Assembly (NCBI RefSeq): GCF_020509005.1
Contig: NC_063017.1
Coordinates: 248,001 to 312,000 of the forward strand
Length of the DNA: 64,000 bases
Source of the DNA: Fulvia fulva
Lineage: Eukaryota; Ascomycota; Dothideomycetes; Mycosphaerellales; Mycosphaerellaceae
Direction of reading: 5' to 3'
A program made the translations under genes and the position numbers. Positions 24,001 through 34,515 of the stretch are shown here, in pieces (positions within the stretch are counted from its first letter, which is position 1; each line of letters starts with the position of its first letter). A model generated the notes under the pieces. That model saw only the letters and a list, made by a program, of their open reading frames with translations. It was not told the origin of the DNA and did no database searches.

Positions 24001-26170
24001 ATGGACCTTCCCGATTCCTCTCCAGGCTCGTCGCCGTCGCGGCGAGGCTCACACCTTGACACAGCAACGAATGGCGTACCATCACATCCTAAGCATGTTT
24101 CTTGGAGACGCGAATCCAGACCCTCGTTCACAAGAGACGAACCACGACGAAATTCGCGGCAGATGTCGACTGGCAATGCACATATTAGGCGTAGTGTCGA
24201 CTTTGTCAAGGCAGAGGAGGAGTTCAACGAGTCATCGCCACTGCTTCTACCGCGTAAGAGTGAAGAAGTAGAAGCGCTGCCGCCGCTCGCGGAAGTCTTC
24301 AGCCCGGATGAGAGCAGCGGAGAGTCGTCATGGGACGTGGACATGGGCACGAAAGAGGAGAGCAAGAGCACAGTATACATGATCCTGCTGACCATATCAT
24401 TTCTTGGGTGAGTTTGCTTGGTAACTGAGCCGGTACTCTGGTGAGCCCGACCTCAATGCCATGCTTTCGCTGACACTGTCTGATAGTCTACAAATAGCGT
24501 GGTCGGTCGAAATGTCGAACGGCTCCCCGTACCTGCTCAGTCTTGGTGTATCAAAGAGCATGTTAGCATTGGTTTGGATCGCCGGTCCACTATCCGGAAC
24601 TTTGGTCCAGCCATACGTCGGGATCAAGTCGGACAACCTACAGTCGAGATGGGGCAAGCGGAGACCATTCATTGTCGGAGGCGCAATTGCTACCATTATA
24701 TCGCTGATCATTCTGGCTTGGACACGCGAGATCGTCGGTGGCCTTCTGTCGATCTTTGGCGTTTCGAGAGATAGCTCTGGAACTGCCACGTGCTCGGTGG
24801 TCCTTGCGGTGCTGATGATCTACGTTCTGGACTTCAGTATTAACGTTATCCAGGCGGCGATCAGAGCGTTCCTCGTCGACAGTGCTCCGACACACCAGCA
24901 AGATACTGCCAATGCCTGGGCTAGCCGTCTCAGCGGTATAGGCAACATCACTGGATACCTCTTTGGATACGCAAACTTACCAAAGTATCTCTGGTTCTTT
25001 GGCGATACGCAGTTCAAGGTGCTTTGTGTGATCGCATGTCTGGTTCTGGCCATCACCGTCGCCATTTCAGTCACATCCGTAGGCGAGCGAGACCCTCGGC
25101 AGGATGGCAAGCCTATGCAGCAGACGGGCGGCGTGATTGCGTTCTTCAGGCAGTTATATCGATCTGTCAAGAAGCTGCCGCCACAGATCAAGGCCGTGTG
25201 TGTCGTCCAACTTGCCGCGTGGATCGGCTGGTTTCCATTCCTGTTCTACATCACGACATACATTGGCGAGCTTTACGTGGAGCCTATATTCAAGGAGAAG
25301 GGGCCAGATCTGACCGACAAAGACATTGACGAGGCATGGGAGCACGGCACAAGGGTCGGAACGTTCGCACTGCTGATATACGCAATTGTCTCGTTCCTGG
25401 CCAGTGTCACAATACCGTGGTTCGTGGCCAGCTCCTACGACCCTGAGAATCTTCACGACACACCAAGGACGCCAGGCACACCCATGGCTAGGACGCCAGG
25501 TACGCCAATGACCGACTTGACGCCAGGCCGGTTCGGAGATGGAGGCGATGGCTACTTTGGCATCAGAGCTTCTGGCGCAGCCGATGCACGCTCGACGAAA
25601 AGCACGTTCGCCCAAAAGGCCAAGAAATGGTTCACAAAGAAGCGAGGCAGGTCCCTTGCCATCCCGTGGCTGACGCTCAAACGCGGCTGGCTCCTCTCCC
25701 ACATCATGTTCGCCATCCTCATGTGGCTCACCTTCATCGCGAAGAACACCACGGTCGCCACAATCCTAGCGGGTCTAGTCGGCATCCCCTGGGCAATGAC
25801 GATGTGGGCACCCTTCGCGTTGATCGCAGCAGAAATCTCAAAGCGTGAGAACATTCGACGAGGCATCATCAAACCCCCACCCACTCGCGACGGTGAACTC
25901 CTTGCTAGGGGCGAGGATACTAGTGAAGGCGCGGACCAGGCCGGCGTGGTGCTGGGAATCCACAACGTCGCGATTGCGGCGCCGCAGGTCATTGCTACGC
26001 TGATCAGCAGTGCAGTCTTCAAAGCTTTACAGAAGCCAAGAGGCAGTGTGGGAGATGATAGTGTAGCGTGGGTTCTGAGGTTTGGGGGCATTCTGGCGCT
26101 GGTGGCCGCGTGGCTGACGAGGAGGATTAAAGAGGAGGACGATCCTGAGGACGCGAAGCCGCATTGGTGA
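24001..26170 (+). CDS. SUT-type sucrose/alpha-glucoside:H+ symporter (GPH family)
   Basis: Exons 24001-24407 and 24487-26170 give 696 aa; the 79-nt intron has GTGAGT and GATAG ends. A disordered N-terminus of about 125 residues precedes twelve hydrophobic helices. The hallmark SRWGKRRPFIVGG between helices 2 and 3 is the SUT/GPH-family signature, preceded by GPLSGTLVQPYVG. The protein should carry sucrose, maltose or a related glucoside inward with protons across the plasma membrane. The central cytosolic loop (about residues 450-500) is unusually long and includes a TPGTPM repeat. The last helices are followed by a short acidic tail. Close relatives are found in plants and in fungi such as Schizosaccharomyces Sut1. 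Confidence 0.9.
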
Positions 26171-26588
26171 GGACTCTCGAGTTCAGTATGGGAGGATACA
26201 TGCAAGCATTTGATACAGAACGACCTCTCTTGCATAGATCGGTAGGTTGGAATAGTCGCCCCGCCGCGAAAGAGCTGGCGCGTGGCTTTTTGCGTTGAGC
26301 ATGCGAGCGAGCGCAGGCGTTGTGGTTCTGGGGTTCCGGGTTTGTGTTTCGGGGGATGATGAGATGAGACGAAGACGATGAGTATATGATCTGTAGCGCA
26401 ATGATACCGATGTTTGATGTCCTATCCGGCGTAAAGGCGCTGTCAAGGTGAGCCGCTAGTGAGGAAGGTGAAACGTTGTGCAGGGGTTGGTGTTGGAGGA
26501 GGAAGGCACGTGTAAGACGCGACTAAAAGCTCACAGCACCAAGAACTCTTTCAACAACATAGCGCTCATTCGTGCGCCCGAATCCAAG
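26171..26588. other. Promoter region of the 26589 gene
   Basis: About 420 bp without a supported gene. It contains a CACGTG E-box at 26507-26512, about 77 bp before the preferred ATG. Confidence 0.45.
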
Positions 26589-27989
26589 ATGGCGCAGCAG
26601 CTCGTGCCTGTCACAGAGATGACGGACTCGCATTGGCACGCTTGGTCCAAGGCGCATCCAAGACTGGACCCGAGTAGGCAGCCATGCGGCGTTAACAGCA
26701 TACTGTACATGCTGGGCCATCTCTGCATACGCCTCGAAAAGAAGGGTCATCATGTAGGTGCTACAAACAACGCGGTGTGGCGAACCGGCGATGACTCACT
26801 TGATGGTACACCTGGCCTGCGCCGCATCAAAGCGAAACTTGCCACATTCCACGAGACACTGCTCGGCGAACTCGTCGAGGACAGCATGCAAGAGTGGCAC
26901 CGAGCCCGTCACGCGGCGAATAACAACCACAACCCCAACCCAATTGGTACGGACGCCGGCTCAGAGCTACATGCGGCGTTGTACAAAATGCAGCTCAAGA
27001 ACCAGAGACTCAAGCAGCAGATCAAGTACCAGCACATGCTCAGGAAGGAGTGGGCCGGGGAAGCGGATACGAAGATTCACAAGCTTGAGGATGAGCTTTC
27101 AGCTCAAAGACAGGCGGCCGCCGAGAAGGTTGAGGTACTGGAGGACATGCTGCTGCAGGCAAAAGTGGCGGCAGTCTCAATGCAAGCTTCACTCAGCATC
27201 ATCATGGTACCATCCCTGCGCGGCACTGCTGGAGCAAGCAGAGCATATCAGATCCAGCTGGATGCCAGACTCGGTCGCCAAGCTGAAGAGGAGGTCAAGA
27301 TGAGGGGAGGCTTAAAGGCTCCTAGCTACATCAGCCGCGATCAAAGCGACACGTCAAGCCTGAGCAGCTTAAGCTCCGCCAGTGACGAGCTAGCACCTCA
27401 TACCCTACAGGAAATCACCATACGAGAAGCTGTCTCATCTCCGACACAATTCACAAAGGGCGAAGACTGCGACATCGATCTGTGGTCGGACGGTCGGCGA
27501 CCGCTGCACGTGAAGCATCAAGCACTGTTCGAAGCCGGACAGCGGCGAAAGCAGCGAGAATTCGACGAGTATTGCAAGCGCGAATTCGGCGTCTATGAAG
27601 GCCAGGAGACGGACGAAGGAGAGGACAGTGACGACTCCAGTCTCGAGGAGTATGCTCCCGAGAGCTTAGGGGGTGTCACGCAGACTCGATCGAGAACTGC
27701 AATTCGCGGAGTTGTCCCACCTGCACGCGCTACCTCTACCATCAAACAAGGGGACAACGAAGAGTGGTCCACATGCCGACAGGAAGACCATATGAAGAAG
27801 GGCGAACAACGGCTCGACACGGAGATCGTGAAGCAGCAAGAAGAGGCTAAGCATCTTGACCGCGAACCACCTGCAGCCAGGACGCAGTTGATGGCGCGGG
27901 AGCAGGTTGAGCGTTACGACCGCTTGGCCGCAGCGATACAGAGGCATGATGCCTCTCTCGACGCAATGAAGAAGATGAAGGCCTGGTAG
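26589..27989 (+). CDS. Coiled-coil protein of unknown function
   Basis: The open frame starts at 26478, but I prefer the ATG at 26589 (AAGATGGCG context), giving 466 aa. The N-terminal 110 residues are mixed helical, followed by a strong coiled coil (about residues 130-210, rich in Lys/Gln/Glu), a Ser-rich linker, an acidic EGQETDEGEDSDDSS stretch and a C-terminal charged helix. There is no signal peptide, membrane segment or catalytic motif. I do not recognise the family. The composition suggests a cytosolic or nuclear structural or adaptor protein. Confidence 0.65.
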   Translation: MAQQLVPVTEMTDSHWHAWSKAHPRLDPSRQPCGVNSILYMLGHLCIRLEKKGHHVGATNNAVWRTGDDSLDGTPGLRRIKAKLATFHETLLGELVEDSMQEWHRARHAANNNHNPNPIGTDAGSELHAALYKMQLKNQRLKQQIKYQHMLRKEWAGEADTKIHKLEDELSAQRQAAAEKVEVLEDMLLQAKVAAVSMQASLSIIMVPSLRGTAGASRAYQIQLDARLGRQAEEEVKMRGGLKAPSYISRDQSDTSSLSSLSSASDELAPHTLQEITIREAVSSPTQFTKGEDCDIDLWSDGRRPLHVKHQALFEAGQRRKQREFDEYCKREFGVYEGQETDEGEDSDDSSLEEYAPESLGGVTQTRSRTAIRGVVPPARATSTIKQGDNEEWSTCRQEDHMKKGEQRLDTEIVKQQEEAKHLDREPPAARTQLMAREQVERYDRLAAAIQRHDASLDAMKKMKAW

Positions 27990-28406
27990 GCATTTGCTGC
28001 TTCGTCACTTACTTCATCGGTGTGTGGCTCAATGAGGCGCTCTGAATATCGTCATTCAGGACCACGAACGGCATGTACATAGCTCCTGATAGCTCAAAAC
28101 TCTGTTGGCGTTCTCATTGTAATGGCTGTGAGACGTCAAAAGTCATCTCAGTCCTTGGCGTTGTGAGCATACTGTTGTCCACATTGAACTAGGATTACGC
28201 TAGCTCGGGCTGCCAAGCTGCGATTGGCCAAATTAGGCGCGTGATGACTCAGCCTCGCTGGAAATTCTAGCTTCGTGACTGTCGCGAGACATCTTTTCTC
28301 AAGAACAATTGGAGCGTCTTACTCAACACCATAGGATCAGTGTTTTCAATGCGCACAGTCCTCATGATCTAGAGAAAGATTTACATTCAATCTGAACACC
28401 GCCAAC
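27990..28406. other. Promoter region of the homoserine kinase-AIRS fusion gene
   Basis: About 420 bp with no open frame of note. It holds an ATTGG (inverted CCAAT) at 28223-28227 and a TGACTCA at 28245-28251. Confidence 0.6.
28245..28251 (+). promoter_or_regulatory. TGACTCA, Gcn4/CpcA-type cross-pathway control site
   Basis: A perfect TGACTCA lies 156 bp upstream of the ATG of the homoserine kinase fusion gene. Gcn4 and its filamentous orthologues CpcA/CPC1 bind this palindrome to induce amino-acid biosynthesis genes under starvation. Position and gene function fit; binding is inference. Confidence 0.55.
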
Positions 28407-30563
28407 ATGGCCGAGACGACAATCAAAGTCCCATGTTCCTCAGCGAACATTGGCCCAGGCTTTGACGTGATCGGTCTTGCTCTCTCAGTCTGGCTGGAAG
28501 TCACACTCACCACCGACGACCAGGCTTCATCTGGAGCACCATACAACTGCAGGATCACATATGAAGGCGTCGGCGCAGAAAATGTGCCTCTCGAAGCAGA
28601 CCGCAACCTCATTACACAGACCGCACTTTACGTATTGCGATGCGATGGCCAAAGGTCATTTCCACCCAACACACATGTGCACATCAACAACCCAATCCCT
28701 CTAGGACGAGGTCTCGGCTCTTCTGGTGCAGCAGTAGTTGCAGGTGTCGCTCTTGGCAGTGAAGCAGGCAAGCTCAACCTTTCGAGGGAACGCATTCTCG
28801 ACTACTGCTTGATGATCGAGAGACATCCGGACAATGTCGCTGCAGCCCTTTACGGTGGCTTTGTTGGTAGCTACCTCAAGGAGCTCAATCCTGAAGACAT
28901 GAAGCGCAAGGAAATCCCGCTCGCGGAGGTTCTTCCTGCCCCACAAGGAGGTGAAGATACCGGACTGACACCACCTATTCCACCGAATGACATCGGCAAG
29001 CACATTCGATTCAACTGGGCACCGGAGATCAAGTGTATAGCCATCATTCCGGAGTTTGAAGTCAAGACTGCAATGGCTCGTGAAGTGGTACCACAATCTT
29101 ACGACAAGAAGGATGTGATCTACAACTTGCAGAGAGTGGCATTATTGACGACTGCGCTTGGACAGAGTCCGCCAAATCCAGAGCTGATCTATGATGGTAT
29201 GCAAGACAAGATCCATCAGCCATACCGCAAAACACTTATCCCTGGCTTGACCGAAATCCTACACTCAGTCACGCCAAGCACACATCCTGGATTGCTCGGC
29301 GTATGCCTCTCAGGAGCTGGACCAACGATACTTGCGCTTGCAACCGAGAACTTCGAGCAGATTGCAAACAGACTCATCGACCAGCTCAAGAAGAGCTACA
29401 AGGAAGCCAAGTCTGTCGACCTGGAGTGTAACTGGAAGCTGCTCGAGCCCGCCACTGACGGTCTCACCATAACTCACGAGGGCGAATCGCAAAGCAAGGG
29501 TATGACTTACGCAGATGCCGGCGTATCGATCGACGCTGGCAACAACTTTGTTGAGAGAATCAGAGCCGCCGTGAAGTCGACCAGCAGGCCCGGCGCAGAT
29601 GCCGAGATCGGTGGCTTCGCAGGCGCAATAGATCTGGTCGCAGCTGGCTACGAGGAGGCCCCAACAATAGTCTCCTGTATCGACGGCGTCGGCACGAAGC
29701 TCATGATCGCATTCGGCATCGAAGACTACTCAACCGTCGGCATCGACCTCGTAGCCATGAGCGTGAATGATTTGATCGTGCAAGGCGCCGAACCTCTCAC
29801 ATTCCTGGACTACTATGCCTGCTCGCATCTCGACCTCGATATCGCGGCTCCGTTTGTTGAGGGTGTTGCGAAGGGATGCATAGAAGCCAACTGCGCACTG
29901 GTCGGTGGCGAGACGGCGGAGATGCCGGGTCTGTATGCGGGTAAGGACTTTGATGCAGCTGGCGAGGCGAATGGTGCGATCAGAAGAGGCCAAAAAGTCC
30001 TTCCCGATCTTGACTCGATGAAAGAAGGAGACGTCCTTCTCGGCCTACCAAGCAGTGGCGTTCACTCGAACGGCTTCTCCCTGGTGCGAAAGATTTTGGA
30101 GCGGAAACGTCTCAGTTACCGCGACCAAGCGCCTTGGAATAGCAGCAAGTCTGTTGGCGAAAGTCTTCTCACACCTACCAGAATCTATGTTAAGCCCCTC
30201 ATGGCTGCTATCAAGGACGATCTCCTCCTTGGCATGGCCCACATCACAGGTGGTGGTCTGGAAGACAACATTCCCCGCATGCTGCCGAAGGATGGTCATC
30301 TTGCTGCTGAGGTCGATGTCTCGACATGGGAGGTGCCTGCCGTGCTTAAGTGGTTGAAGCAAGCTGGTAATGTCAGCAGTCGGGAGTTCGCCAGGACGTG
30401 GAATACAGGATTGGGCATGGTGATTGTGGTGAAGGAGGGGCTTGCGGCAGAGGCCACGAAGGTGCTGGAGGCTAACGGGGAGAAGGTGCATAGGATTGGT
30501 AAGCTGGTGGCACATAAGGGTGAGGGAGTGGTGCTGAAGAACTTGGAGCATTGGGAGAAGTAG
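28407..30563 (+). CDS. Homoserine kinase fused to AIR synthetase (PurM domain)
   Basis: A single intron-free frame of 718 aa. Residues 1 to about 354 form a complete GHMP-type homoserine kinase (Thr1): KVPCSSANIGPGFDV at the N-terminus, the ATP loop PLGRGLGSSGAAVVAG near residues 97-113, and SGAGPTILAL near 304. After about ten linker residues, residues 365-715 form a complete phosphoribosylformylglycinamidine cyclo-ligase: TYADAGVSIDAGN, DGVGTKL near 425, NDLIVQGAEP near 454, GGETAEMPG near 500, SSGVHSNGFSLVRKI near 550 and TGLGM near 665. The first half phosphorylates homoserine on the way to threonine; the second closes the imidazole ring in purine synthesis. AIRS normally sits behind GARS in fungal Ade5,7; here homoserine kinase takes GARS's place. 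The second half resembles fungal Ade5,7 (SRPGADA) more than bacterial PurM. Confidence 0.93.
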   Translation: MAETTIKVPCSSANIGPGFDVIGLALSVWLEVTLTTDDQASSGAPYNCRITYEGVGAENVPLEADRNLITQTALYVLRCDGQRSFPPNTHVHINNPIPLGRGLGSSGAAVVAGVALGSEAGKLNLSRERILDYCLMIERHPDNVAAALYGGFVGSYLKELNPEDMKRKEIPLAEVLPAPQGGEDTGLTPPIPPNDIGKHIRFNWAPEIKCIAIIPEFEVKTAMAREVVPQSYDKKDVIYNLQRVALLTTALGQSPPNPELIYDGMQDKIHQPYRKTLIPGLTEILHSVTPSTHPGLLGVCLSGAGPTILALATENFEQIANRLIDQLKKSYKEAKSVDLECNWKLLEPATDGLTITHEGESQSKGMTYADAGVSIDAGNNFVERIRAAVKSTSRPGADAEIGGFAGAIDLVAAGYEEAPTIVSCIDGVGTKLMIAFGIEDYSTVGIDLVAMSVNDLIVQGAEPLTFLDYYACSHLDLDIAAPFVEGVAKGCIEANCALVGGETAEMPGLYAGKDFDAAGEANGAIRRGQKVLPDLDSMKEGDVLLGLPSSGVHSNGFSLVRKILERKRLSYRDQAPWNSSKSVGESLLTPTRIYVKPLMAAIKDDLLLGMAHITGGGLEDNIPRMLPKDGHLAAEVDVSTWEVPAVLKWLKQAGNVSSREFARTWNTGLGMVIVVKEGLAAEATKVLEANGEKVHRIGKLVAHKGEGVVLKNLEHWEK

Positions 30564-30638: not shown

Positions 30639-32251
30639 TCACAACTGATGAAGCTTCAGATCTTTCTCACTCTCCACCTCACCACCAGCCTCGAGCTCTA
30701 GAGCCTTCCTCACCTTCCTCCTATTCGCAAGCCTCAACCCAAAGTAGAGTGCCGACATACTCGCAATGCTCAGACAACTGAACGCAGTCCCCACCGAGAA
30801 GCCTACACATCATTAGCAACCCACCCTTTCCTTCTACAATCACCTCCACGATACTCACCCGTCCTATACCTCGGCTCCTCCTCTGTAATGTAAACATTAC
30901 TACTCACCAACGCACCACAATTCCCCACCGCCGTCGTCATAGCAAATGCCACAACACGTTTGTATCCCTTCCCTACATTGATCGCATTCCACACTACAAG
31001 AATCGGCATGACGATATAACACCCAGAGGCCATGAAGAAGGTTCCCATATATCGGATCCTCGTATCAGCAGGATTTCCAAGCTGGATCGCCAGACCCGTG
31101 AGATTGAGCAGGCCACCAAACAGGGCGAAGAAGTAGCGCTGCTTGAGGCGCTCGGCGGCGTAGGCGCAGGATAGGGTGAGTAAGAAGGCGACGCAGTAGA
31201 TTGGTATAGAGTGGACTTGCGCTTGGACGGAGGTGTAGCCGAGGCCTTTGAGGATTGAGGGCAGGAAGGCGACGACTGAGGAGGCGTTCTCTTGGACTCC
31301 CATATATGTCAGGGTTGCTGTCCAGATTTTCCAATCGGAGAGGGCTGTGAGGATTTCTTTGCGGATGTTGATTTTTGGTTCGGGCTCTGGGGATTTGAGG
31401 TCGAGGCGTTGGAGGAGGGTTGCTTTCTCTTCGCCTTGGAACATTTTCGTGTCCTGCGGGAAGGCGGGTATGAAGAAGTAGGCGAAGAGGGCGAGGATGC
31501 AGGTTAGTGCGCCTTCTACCTAGATTAGACTGTTAGTATGCTCTCCTCTCTATTGCCAACGGCGTGCAGCTTCACTCACAATGAAGATCCACCTCCACCC
31601 CTCAATGCCACCAGCGCCATCAGCCTTCGACAGCAAAAACGAGAACAATCCATTGAAAGCCCCAGCAATAATAGCCCCACTCATAAACACCGCATACCTC
31701 CTCAAAAACTCCCCATCCCGATAATAACTCCCAATAAGAAACGCACACCCCGGCACAAACCCCGCCTCAAACACCCCCATCAGAAATCTACACACCACCA
31801 GCGCCTCCCAACTCTTCACGAACCCCTGACTCAGCGCGAAAGTCCCCCAGATGAACATCATATAGCTGAGACTCGAGGGGCCGATCTTCTTGAAGATGAT
31901 GGAAGCCGGCAGGCCGAAGGTCATGTATGCTATTGTGAAGACCATGACGGCGATGTTGTAGCGGTTGCCGGTGAGGTGGAGGTCGCGGGACATGCCGGCG
32001 ATTTTGGCGTTGCCGATATTGGAGCGGTCGGCGAAGGAGACGATGAAGAGGATGTTGAGGAGGGTGAGGAGGGTGAGGTCGACTTTGCGGAGGATGTGGC
32101 GTTCGAGGGCTTTGTTGATGGGTGGTGCTGTTGTGGTGCCTGGCTCGAGTTCGTCGGTTGTTCGCTTCATTTCTAGTGTTGAAGAGTCTGTAGGTGATGG
32201 CCGCTGTGGAAGTGCTGTGAGCTCTGGCGAGCTGGATCGTGTTGTACTCAT
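30639..32251 (-). CDS. MFS permease, Dal5/allantoate (anion:cation symporter) family
   Basis: Exons 32251-31580, 31519-30859 and 30802-30639 give 498 aa; introns are 60 and 56 nt. A disordered N-terminus of about 45 residues precedes twelve predicted helices. Family landmarks are FADRSNIGNAKIAGM after helix 1, RFLMGVFEAGFVPG in helix 4 and GWRWIFI at helix 6. The family imports organic anions and vitamins such as allantoate, nicotinate, pantothenate or biotin across the plasma membrane; the substrate cannot be told from sequence. It is convergent with the homoserine kinase fusion, with only 75 bp between stops. The 60-nt first intron is a multiple of three but contains a stop, supporting the splice. 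Confidence 0.9.
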
Positions 32252-32529: not shown

Positions 32530-34515
32530 CTATCCACTATCCTCAGCATCCACCTGAATGCTCTGCGGGTTCCTAAACACATTATCAGGATCCAATTCCG
32601 CCTTGATCTTCTGCAGCCTCTCCACATTATCACCCCAATATGCCGTCTGAGCATCATGCAAGCTCTTGTCGACATACCCAGGATACGCACTATCATCAAC
32701 ACCAGGAGTCGCGTTCTTGGCGGCCTCGTTGAGCCCATTTAGGAAGAGCCTCGAGGTGGGAGTGACGATTTGCGTGAGGTCCACGATGTAGCTCTGCATC
32801 CAATACAGCGCATCACGATGCCAGTATGCTGTCGCATCTTGAGCCACGTCGTTGATCGCTCCACCTGCGAGGTCGAAGACCACGAACCATAGAGGAGAGT
32901 TGCTTTCGGCAGTGTCGAGGTAGTTGAAGACCTGGTCGATGGCATCTTCTGTCATCAGAGTGTTCTCGGTGAACTTCAGGCTCTTGCTGTAGAAGTGGGC
33001 GGGCGTATGCGAGGCGAAGAGAGTCGAGAAGACGCCTGAGAGCTTGGTGCCAGGTGGTAGTGCTGATAGCAGTGGGCTCTGCTGTACATCGCTGACAAGC
33101 TCGAGGATCGACGTGAGATTGAGGTTCGGGAGAAGCTCGCCCAGGATATGCAGGTCGGTCGTGTTGGTGATGATGTCGAGGAGACCCGAGTATCTAAGGT
33201 TCGTGAAGACGGACTGCAAAACAGCAGTATCGCCCTGGAAAGCTTCGAGCACGGATGCTAGACTGGTATCCTTGAGTTGCTGGACGTCTTGTAAGACTGC
33301 CGCGGTATCACCAGACTCGATTGCCGGTGCCACTTGTGCAAGGCTGCCAATGAGGGGCTGGAGAATATCTGCAGACAGAGCCGGTAGGAAACCCAGAAGA
33401 CCTGTACCGGATAAGTTGTTGACTAACCCGAAGGCAGCGGTCAAGTTAAGCTTGTCCAGGACAGCAAGCAGATCGGCCGTGTCAAGTGCATCGCCGGTAG
33501 GCCCTGCAACCCCAGCGGCAGCGAACTGTACCTCTGACTCTGTTTCGACCTTCATCAAGTCCTCCGGTGACCCATAGAACGACCCAGTGACGAGCGAGAA
33601 GCCCTCGTAGATATAGATCGTAGAGCTAAGACTTCTCGACAAATTCTTCTGCGAGATAAGACCTTGCCAGCCGGCGACGACACCCGCAGAAGTGCTAAAG
33701 TTGCCAGGCACAATGTACGAGTAGGGAACGGGTTGAACAGGATCGCGCGTCTTGATCGTGAACCGGGTGACGATACCGAAACTCCACGCGGCGCCCTTGA
33801 TGGCGAAGAAGAGATCCTGGTTCTCGTCGTCGGACGCGGTGACGATGGAGCCGTCCGCCAGCACGACTTGCGCTTCTATGATCTGGTCGGCAGCAAGTCC
33901 GTAGGTCCTCGACAGTGGTCCAAGGCCTCCTACAGTGAAGTGTCCTCCCGTACCAATGGATGGGATGAAGCTGTAGACGGCAGTACGGCCGACAGCAGTC
34001 AATTGCTCGGTCAGAGCACCAAGTAAGTTCCCGGTGCCGAAGCAGAGCGTTTGATCGGCGTCGTTGTACGTGATACTGTTCAGGTTCTGCAAATTGATCG
34101 ACAAGGACCCATTGATTCCTCCCAGACCTGCGAAGAACATCAGCATGGCAGTATAAATTGACCGACCTTTGGAATACATACCAAAATTATCAAAACCATG
34201 TCCACCACTCAGCGGCTGGACCGCTATCTTCGCATCGCGAGCACACTTCACCAAGGCAGCGACCTCTTCTGCCGTCGTTGGGAAAGCTATAGCCGAGGGA
34301 GCGACCACATTGTCGAGGTTGTAGATGTCCAGCTCGCTCACATAGTTCGGCGAAGTCGGCACCACATATTGACTCGAGTTGCCACTGACAGCATTCGCAA
34401 TGCAAGTGGCATACTGAGCAATCGTAGCAGGATCAGGCGGTGATGGAGGATACTGTGGACCTTGCGCAAGGCTGAAAGGCAAGGCAGTAAGTAGACCTGC
34501 TACGAGCGGCAACAT
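32530..34515 (-). CDS. Secreted FAD-linked oxidoreductase, berberine-bridge (BBE)-like, with large insert
   Basis: Exons 34515-34182 and 34127-32530 give 643 aa; the 54-nt intron is a multiple of three and open, but its removal restores the family sequence. Residues 1-19 are a signal peptide. The FAD_binding_4 domain has SGGHGFDNFG with the flavin-linking His106, and GTGGHFTVGGLG near residue 170. Enzymes with two flavin links have Cys in place of that Phe, so this one is probably linked only through His. The BBE element near the C-terminus includes DPDNVFRNPQ. Between the two lies an extra Leu/Ala-rich segment of about 110-130 residues (within 307-483). Several N-glycosylation sites are present. 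It probably oxidises a sugar or an alcohol outside the cell. Confidence 0.88.
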   Translation of the reverse strand: MLPLVAGLLTALPFSLAQGPQYPPSPPDPATIAQYATCIANAVSGNSSQYVVPTSPNYVSELDIYNLDNVVAPSAIAFPTTAEEVAALVKCARDAKIAVQPLSGGHGFDNFGMYSKGRSIYTAMLMFFAGLGGINGSLSINLQNLNSITYNDADQTLCFGTGNLLGALTEQLTAVGRTAVYSFIPSIGTGGHFTVGGLGPLSRTYGLAADQIIEAQVVLADGSIVTASDDENQDLFFAIKGAAWSFGIVTRFTIKTRDPVQPVPYSYIVPGNFSTSAGVVAGWQGLISQKNLSRSLSSTIYIYEGFSLVTGSFYGSPEDLMKVETESEVQFAAAGVAGPTGDALDTADLLAVLDKLNLTAAFGLVNNLSGTGLLGFLPALSADILQPLIGSLAQVAPAIESGDTAAVLQDVQQLKDTSLASVLEAFQGDTAVLQSVFTNLRYSGLLDIITNTTDLHILGELLPNLNLTSILELVSDVQQSPLLSALPPGTKLSGVFSTLFASHTPAHFYSKSLKFTENTLMTEDAIDQVFNYLDTAESNSPLWFVVFDLAGGAINDVAQDATAYWHRDALYWMQSYIVDLTQIVTPTSRLFLNGLNEAAKNATPGVDDSAYPGYVDKSLHDAQTAYWGDNVERLQKIKAELDPDNVFRNPQSIQVDAEDSG

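Follow-up and report, generated by a model that had tools for sequence, protein, structure and literature searches.

AIR synthetase (AIRS) occurs in bacteria as PurM, a free monofunctional protein, and elsewhere as part of larger polypeptides. Animal GART has the order GARS-AIRS-GART, and fungal Ade5,7 carries GARS in front of AIRS. Fungal homoserine kinase (THR1) is described as a stand-alone protein of about 350 aa, without an AIR synthetase extension. Fused enzymes are usually taken as a sign that their activities belong together, and the activities joined in animal GART are those of a single pathway.

We describe a gene of Fulvia fulva in which homoserine kinase and AIRS form one protein. 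The gene lies in a window of 64 kb (the whole stretch of DNA that was analysed, C6:248001-312000) of a 67.17 Mb genome on 14 contigs. Judged by titles and the openings of abstracts, none of the papers listed in searches of the open-licence literature describes such a fusion, and a description may be in print elsewhere. The AIRS half is homologous to that of fungal Ade5,7 over its whole length and starts at the same domain boundary. However, it has no GARS in front of it, and GARS is a separate gene in Fulvia fulva. Compared with bacterial PurM (1CLI), fusion residues 365-706 align to residues 6-339 (E 5.6e-93), which is nearly the whole domain, but in the fusion that domain is attached behind homoserine kinase rather than free. 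The kinase half shares its motifs with stand-alone fungal THR1 and ends at almost the same C-terminal position, differing in the AIR synthetase that it carries C-terminally. Animal GART likewise holds AIRS within a multifunctional polypeptide, whereas the fusion described here spans two pathways.

Architecture of the Fusion Gene

The gene and its parts, in window coordinates, are as follows.

28407..30563, + strand: whole fusion gene, homoserine kinase (THR1)-AIR synthetase (AIRS), 718 aa; from the ATG-to-TAG frame and domain matches
28407..29468, + strand: homoserine kinase half, residues 1-354; from the TIGR00191 match, C-terminal alignment and motifs
29469..29501, + strand: linker of about 11 residues (355-365) whose length and sequence vary; from the drop in identity among 120 relatives
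29502..30560, + strand: AIR synthetase half, residues 366-718, starting at Met366; from the TIGR00878 match and boundary alignment

A preliminary description, made from the DNA of the window, had reported a 718-codon frame without stop or intron, encoding homoserine kinase followed after a short spacer by AIRS. Both parts of that account hold. The raw DNA of 28407-30563 (+) is an ATG-to-TAG frame of 718 codons with no internal stops, and both equivalog models score far above their curated cut-offs: TIGR00191 (thrB) gave 333.3 bits against 168.25, over residues 5-356, and TIGR00878 (purM) gave 402.2 bits against 236.35, over residues 366-701. The Pfam domains are GHMP_kinases_N (67-151), GHMP_kinases_C (263-327), AIRS (419-510) and AIRS_C (539-710). 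With phmmer, the fusion matched solved AIR synthetases with a best E of 3.5e-104, and the kinase half alone matched solved homoserine kinases with an E of 1.4e-38, both far outside what chance would give. Alignment of C-termini with nine stand-alone THR1 proteins showed that the kinase half is complete and ends about where stand-alone fungal THR1 does. The protein is not an Ade5,7, in which GARS comes before AIRS in the same chain, because here homoserine kinase precedes AIRS. We conclude that 28407-30563 is a homoserine kinase-AIRS fusion, a pairing that the preliminary description had rightly called unusual. An AlphaFold model of the fusion, built from a 40-row alignment of fusions, was poor (mean pLDDT 63.2, pTM 0.44, residues 360-527 below 50) and supports nothing structural.

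Conservation among Relatives

A protein search with the fusion gave 5359 matches. In the best 120 of these, GHMP_kinases_N, AIRS and AIRS_C were present together without exception (120/120), at 71-95% identity to the Fulvia fulva fusion, with Dothistroma at 95%. An organism name was attached to 73 of the 120 rows, and all 23 genera named there are Dothideomycetes. They represent five orders of the Dothideomycetidae (Mycosphaerellales, Cladosporiales, Neophaeothecales, Dothideales and Myriangiales) plus Peltaster (incertae sedis). Since the fusion is widespread within its group, it must be old. The preliminary description had proposed a search of related genomes for the same two-domain architecture as a check; in the protein search, each of the best 120 of the 5359 matches has it.

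Averaged over the 120 relatives, identity to the Fulvia fulva fusion is 80% across residues 1-352 and 72% across residues 366-715, and it is 35% at the linker (residues 353-365). This profile is consistent with the usual picture of two constrained domains and a free linker. Conserved motifs of the kinase and of AIRS were also compared. The Fulvia fulva protein has all five kinase motifs (SSANIGPGFD, GLGSS, HPDN, HQPYR and SGAGPT), and the last four are kept in 120/120 relatives. SSANIGPGFD is present in 92/120; 20 rows are gapped at that stretch, apparently as a result of shortened gene models. The AIRS motifs DG[VI]GTK, NDLxVQGAEP, GGETAEMPG, HSNG and TGGG occur in all 120 relatives, the first as DGVGTK in 57 and as DGIGTK in 63.

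Reading the named rows, we recognised no Pleosporales among the best 120 fusions, the best 120 GARS-AIRS proteins or the best 120 stand-alone THR1 proteins. Because the stand-alone THR1 list reaches as far as yeasts, at about 65% identity, and shows no Pleosporales, this suggests that Pleosporales may carry the fused form too.

AIRS and GARS in the Fulvia fulva Genome

We searched the whole genome with domain profiles in six frames, exon by exon (E<=0.1). Only the best candidates were scored, and a heavily split or unassembled second copy could escape such a search. At this threshold the AIRS N-terminal domain (PF00586) and thrB each had one match in the genome, and in both cases it was the fusion gene. 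AIRS_C matched the fusion gene and, twice, the inside of a single 1380-codon frame, which by eye reads as FGAM synthase. GARS_A (PF01071) also had one match, at C6:4297099-4297674, within the following gene.

C6:4296700-4298064, - strand: stand-alone GARS gene, 433 residues; one 63-nt intron, GTAAGT...TAG

Aligned with bifunctional proteins, this GARS protein stops at the end of their GARS domain. The gene lies 4.02 Mb from the fusion on the same contig, which is only mildly telling because that contig holds 7.5% of the genome. A separate intact Ade5,7, for which the preliminary description had suggested looking, was not found in the Fulvia fulva genome by the profile search (E<=0.1). In this one genome, from which the stand-alone GARS is known, the GARS-AIRS enzyme is split and the sole AIRS half found now sits on homoserine kinase. 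Since no other AIRS was found in the genome, the C-terminal half of the fusion should be the enzyme that carries out this purine step.

Ancestry of the Two Halves

For comparison with intact GARS-AIRS proteins, we joined the GARS of Fulvia fulva to its own AIRS half and used the product as a probe, which gave 7665 matches. The best 120 all have both domains (120/120), and none is more than 65% identical to the probe. Fish GART matches at 50%; the others are GARS-AIRS proteins with 60-65% identity over 97-100% of the probe, and those with names are from fungi that we place outside the Dothideomycetes (with the class looked up for seven). Identity to the AIRS half of Fulvia fulva is 67-93% among the 120 fusions, so a GARS-AIRS protein from the Dothideomycetidae should have outscored the matches obtained. 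There was none among the best 120 of the 7665.

The kinase half alone was searched with length limits that excluded intact fusions. The best 120 rows were stand-alone THR1 proteins of other Ascomycota, among them yeasts, except for three that are pieces of fusions (two recognised by motif, and one partial Aureobasidium record). Where these 120 rows carried names, we recognised no other Dothideomycetes among them.

Phylogenetic trees of each half gave compatible results. Both were quick trees without bootstrap, built from part of the rows. The AIRS tree included 20 of the 121 fusions and 25 of the 120 probe matches (24 GARS-AIRS proteins, with fish GART as outgroup) and no bacterial rows. The 20 fusions formed one clade (SH-aLRT 100), which lies within fungal GARS-AIRS and has a group made up of Leotiomycetes and Sordariomycetes as its sister (88). 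In the THR1 tree, made from the same 20 fusions and 34 of the 120 rows from the stand-alone search, the fusions again formed one clade (SH-aLRT 100). They were joined at 99 to 27 stand-alone rows, with Terfezia, Morchella and five yeasts outside. Both trees fit vertical descent with what would be a single origin of the fusion.

Positions of the Parent Genes and the AIRS Start

Eight organisms were named in both the GARS-AIRS and the stand-alone THR1 lists (best 120 each), and in these we compared the positions of the two parent genes. THR1 and GARS-AIRS are on a shared contig in 5/8: Diplocarpon coronariae, Phlyctema vagabunda, Venustampulla echinocandica, Xylogone sp. PMI_703 and Chaenotheca gracillima, where we deduced the same contig from contigs of equal size (0.2-4.3 Mb). 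Adjacency is indicated only in Diplocarpon coronariae, by the consecutive tags PZA11_002542 (THR1) and PZA11_002543 (GARS-AIRS); the other four of the five share a contig and nothing closer. The parent genes are on different contigs in the remaining 3/8 (Xylona, Candelaria and Truncatella). Linkage in both Leotiomycetes and Coniocybomycetes suggests that THR1 and GARS-AIRS were close together in the ancestor of the fused form, and that the fusion may have arisen from neighbouring genes. Two candidate routes can be drawn. If the parents stood in tandem, GARS would have been lost from between THR1 and AIRS; if they were convergent, AIRS would have been inverted. In Dothideomycetes, reshuffling inside chromosomes is reported as the mode of change (PMC3219968).

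An in-frame ATG (29502-29504, Met366) falls exactly where the AIRS domain begins.

Immediately ahead of the conserved TYAxAG with which AIRS begins, 113 of the 121 fusions (Fulvia fulva included) have Met and the other 8 have Leu. Among 120 GARS-AIRS proteins the motif was readable in 108, of which 106 have Leu at this position and 2 have Met. An AIRS that had first stood as an independent gene and had later been attached to THR1 would be expected to show Met at precisely this place, and we take the Met as a hint of a free-standing AIRS stage before fusion. It is a hint only, since Leu occupies the AIRS start in 8/121 fusions. Drift in the common ancestor or present-day internal initiation may also account for the Met.

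Alternative Explanations

The preliminary description regarded the AIRS half as a captured copy of a fungal Ade5,7, and possibly as a moonlighting or regulatory protein. On this explanation an extra AIRS was added behind THR1 and an intact Ade5,7 persists elsewhere, leaving the fused AIRS redundant, moonlighting or regulatory. The fungal source was correctly seen, as the AIRS half clusters with fungal Ade5,7 in the tree. The extra copy was not, since no intact Ade5,7 was found in the genome, and for the Fulvia fulva genome as assembled that reading is contradicted. There is one AIRS domain in the genome (E<=0.1), the GARS gene stops at its domain end, and the AIRS motifs are retained throughout the 120 best fusions; taken together, these leave a captured extra copy very improbable. 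With a single AIRS and a GARS gene that lacks one, it is also unlikely that AIRS is moonlighting or purely regulatory. Replacement of the fungal domain by horizontal transfer of AIRS from a bacterium would explain the strong matches to bacterial PurM proteins. We give it virtually no credence, given that the AIRS half nests inside fungal GARS-AIRS (in a tree that held no bacterial rows) and that the joined GARS and AIRS probe matches fungal GARS-AIRS at 60-65% over 97-100% of its length.

The other two alternatives concern the junction. Linkage of THR1 and GARS-AIRS in some relatives would make a false join easy, either as an assembly chimera or as two adjoining genes with a missed intron or stop between them. 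Yet the frame is open in raw DNA, and the architecture shared by all 120 of the best relatives, which come from many sources, means that the junction is not an assembly chimera; a chimeric join near 29470-29500, which the preliminary description had named among the outcomes that would refute its reading, is contradicted, and an artefact of either kind is exceedingly improbable. It is also conceivable, though unlikely, that one mRNA yields AIRS separately as well, or even mainly, through internal initiation at Met366 or cleavage of the linker. The variable linker and the Met at the AIRS start of most fusions, where GARS-AIRS proteins nearly always have Leu, speak for a separate product. On the other hand, some fusions have Leu there as well, a scanning ribosome would have to cross the whole THR1 half (eukaryotic initiation being well established in this respect), and a relic of a former start codon accounts for the Met equally well.

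Proposed Function, Origin and Regulation

We consider it highly probable that the gene encodes a bifunctional homoserine kinase-AIRS enzyme with one origin, no later than the ancestor of the Dothideomycetidae, in which ADE5,7 was split and its AIRS was joined to THR1. Judging from its sequence, the N-terminal half would phosphorylate homoserine in the threonine pathway, and the C-terminal half would form AIR in the purine pathway by closing the imidazole ring of FGAM. The two active sites would be independent, with a flexible linker between them. The homoserine kinase and AIRS reactions share only ATP as a substrate, so channelling is not expected. We infer a single event in which a bifunctional ADE5,7 (GARS-AIRS), adjoining or near THR1, would have been split at the domain boundary. 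GARS would have become a stand-alone gene, while AIRS, perhaps after a time as a separate gene that had its own start codon, would have been attached in frame at the 3' end of THR1. With AIRS fused to homoserine kinase, the cell's sole AIRS activity would now be under the THR1 promoter, in forced 1:1 expression with homoserine kinase.

A fuller version of this history, a transplant across the whole class, seems somewhat better than an even bet. At the base of the Dothideomycetes or Dothideomycetidae, GARS-AIRS would have been broken, leaving AIRS free-standing before it was re-homed on the neighbouring threonine-pathway gene. This would have tied the AIR step to homoserine kinase in both amount and control, and left a single-origin marker of the group. 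AIR synthetase is a homodimer with its ATP site at the interface, and if both halves are homodimeric they may drive a joint assembly of higher order. In yeasts threonine can serve as a source of glycine, which GARS uses as its substrate, and this threonine-glycine link may have favoured the old gene neighbourhood.

The upstream region holds one possible regulatory site.

28245..28251, + strand: TGACTCA, candidate Gcn4/CpcA-type site; ends 155 bases before the start codon

TGACTCA is the motif of general amino acid control. It occurs 6 times in the 64 kb window, compared with 14.6 times in shuffles, and about 0.04-0.1 matches are expected in the 417-base intergenic stretch. The site in the fusion promoter is a weak lead and may be due to chance. 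No TGACTCA was present in the 1.1 kb upstream of GARS, and the one match nearby sits past the GARS stop, which leaves a cis-element common to both genes a weak proposition.

Significance, Naming and Surroundings

In this gene a textbook fusion of enzymes from the same pathway has been undone and one half placed on an enzyme of another pathway, apparently by way of neighbouring genes. It offers a natural test of neutral fusion between gene neighbours against selected co-regulation, and the fusion is a candidate phylogenetic marker. If both halves work, practical genetics in these fungi changes too: purine synthesis would suffer from a THR1 lesion as well, and the yeast-derived pathway map, with its Ade5,7, would misrepresent this group. 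Fusion proteins of this kind are already in databases, often named homoserine kinase, a name that conceals the AIRS half.

A further naming problem appeared among the best 120 rows of the kinase-half search, where 'Trihydroxynaphthalene reductase' is the deposited name of many fungal homoserine kinases. The label is probably a collision of gene names spread by an annotation pipeline, THR1 being also the name of a melanin reductase.

The frames around the fusion were read by eye. Directly upstream is a 503-codon frame at 26478-27989 (+) that is charged near its end. Frames of major-facilitator transporter type flank the fusion at 24461-26170 (+) and 30803-32251 (-), and a 661-codon frame at 32530-34515 (-) reads as a secreted FAD-linked oxidase.
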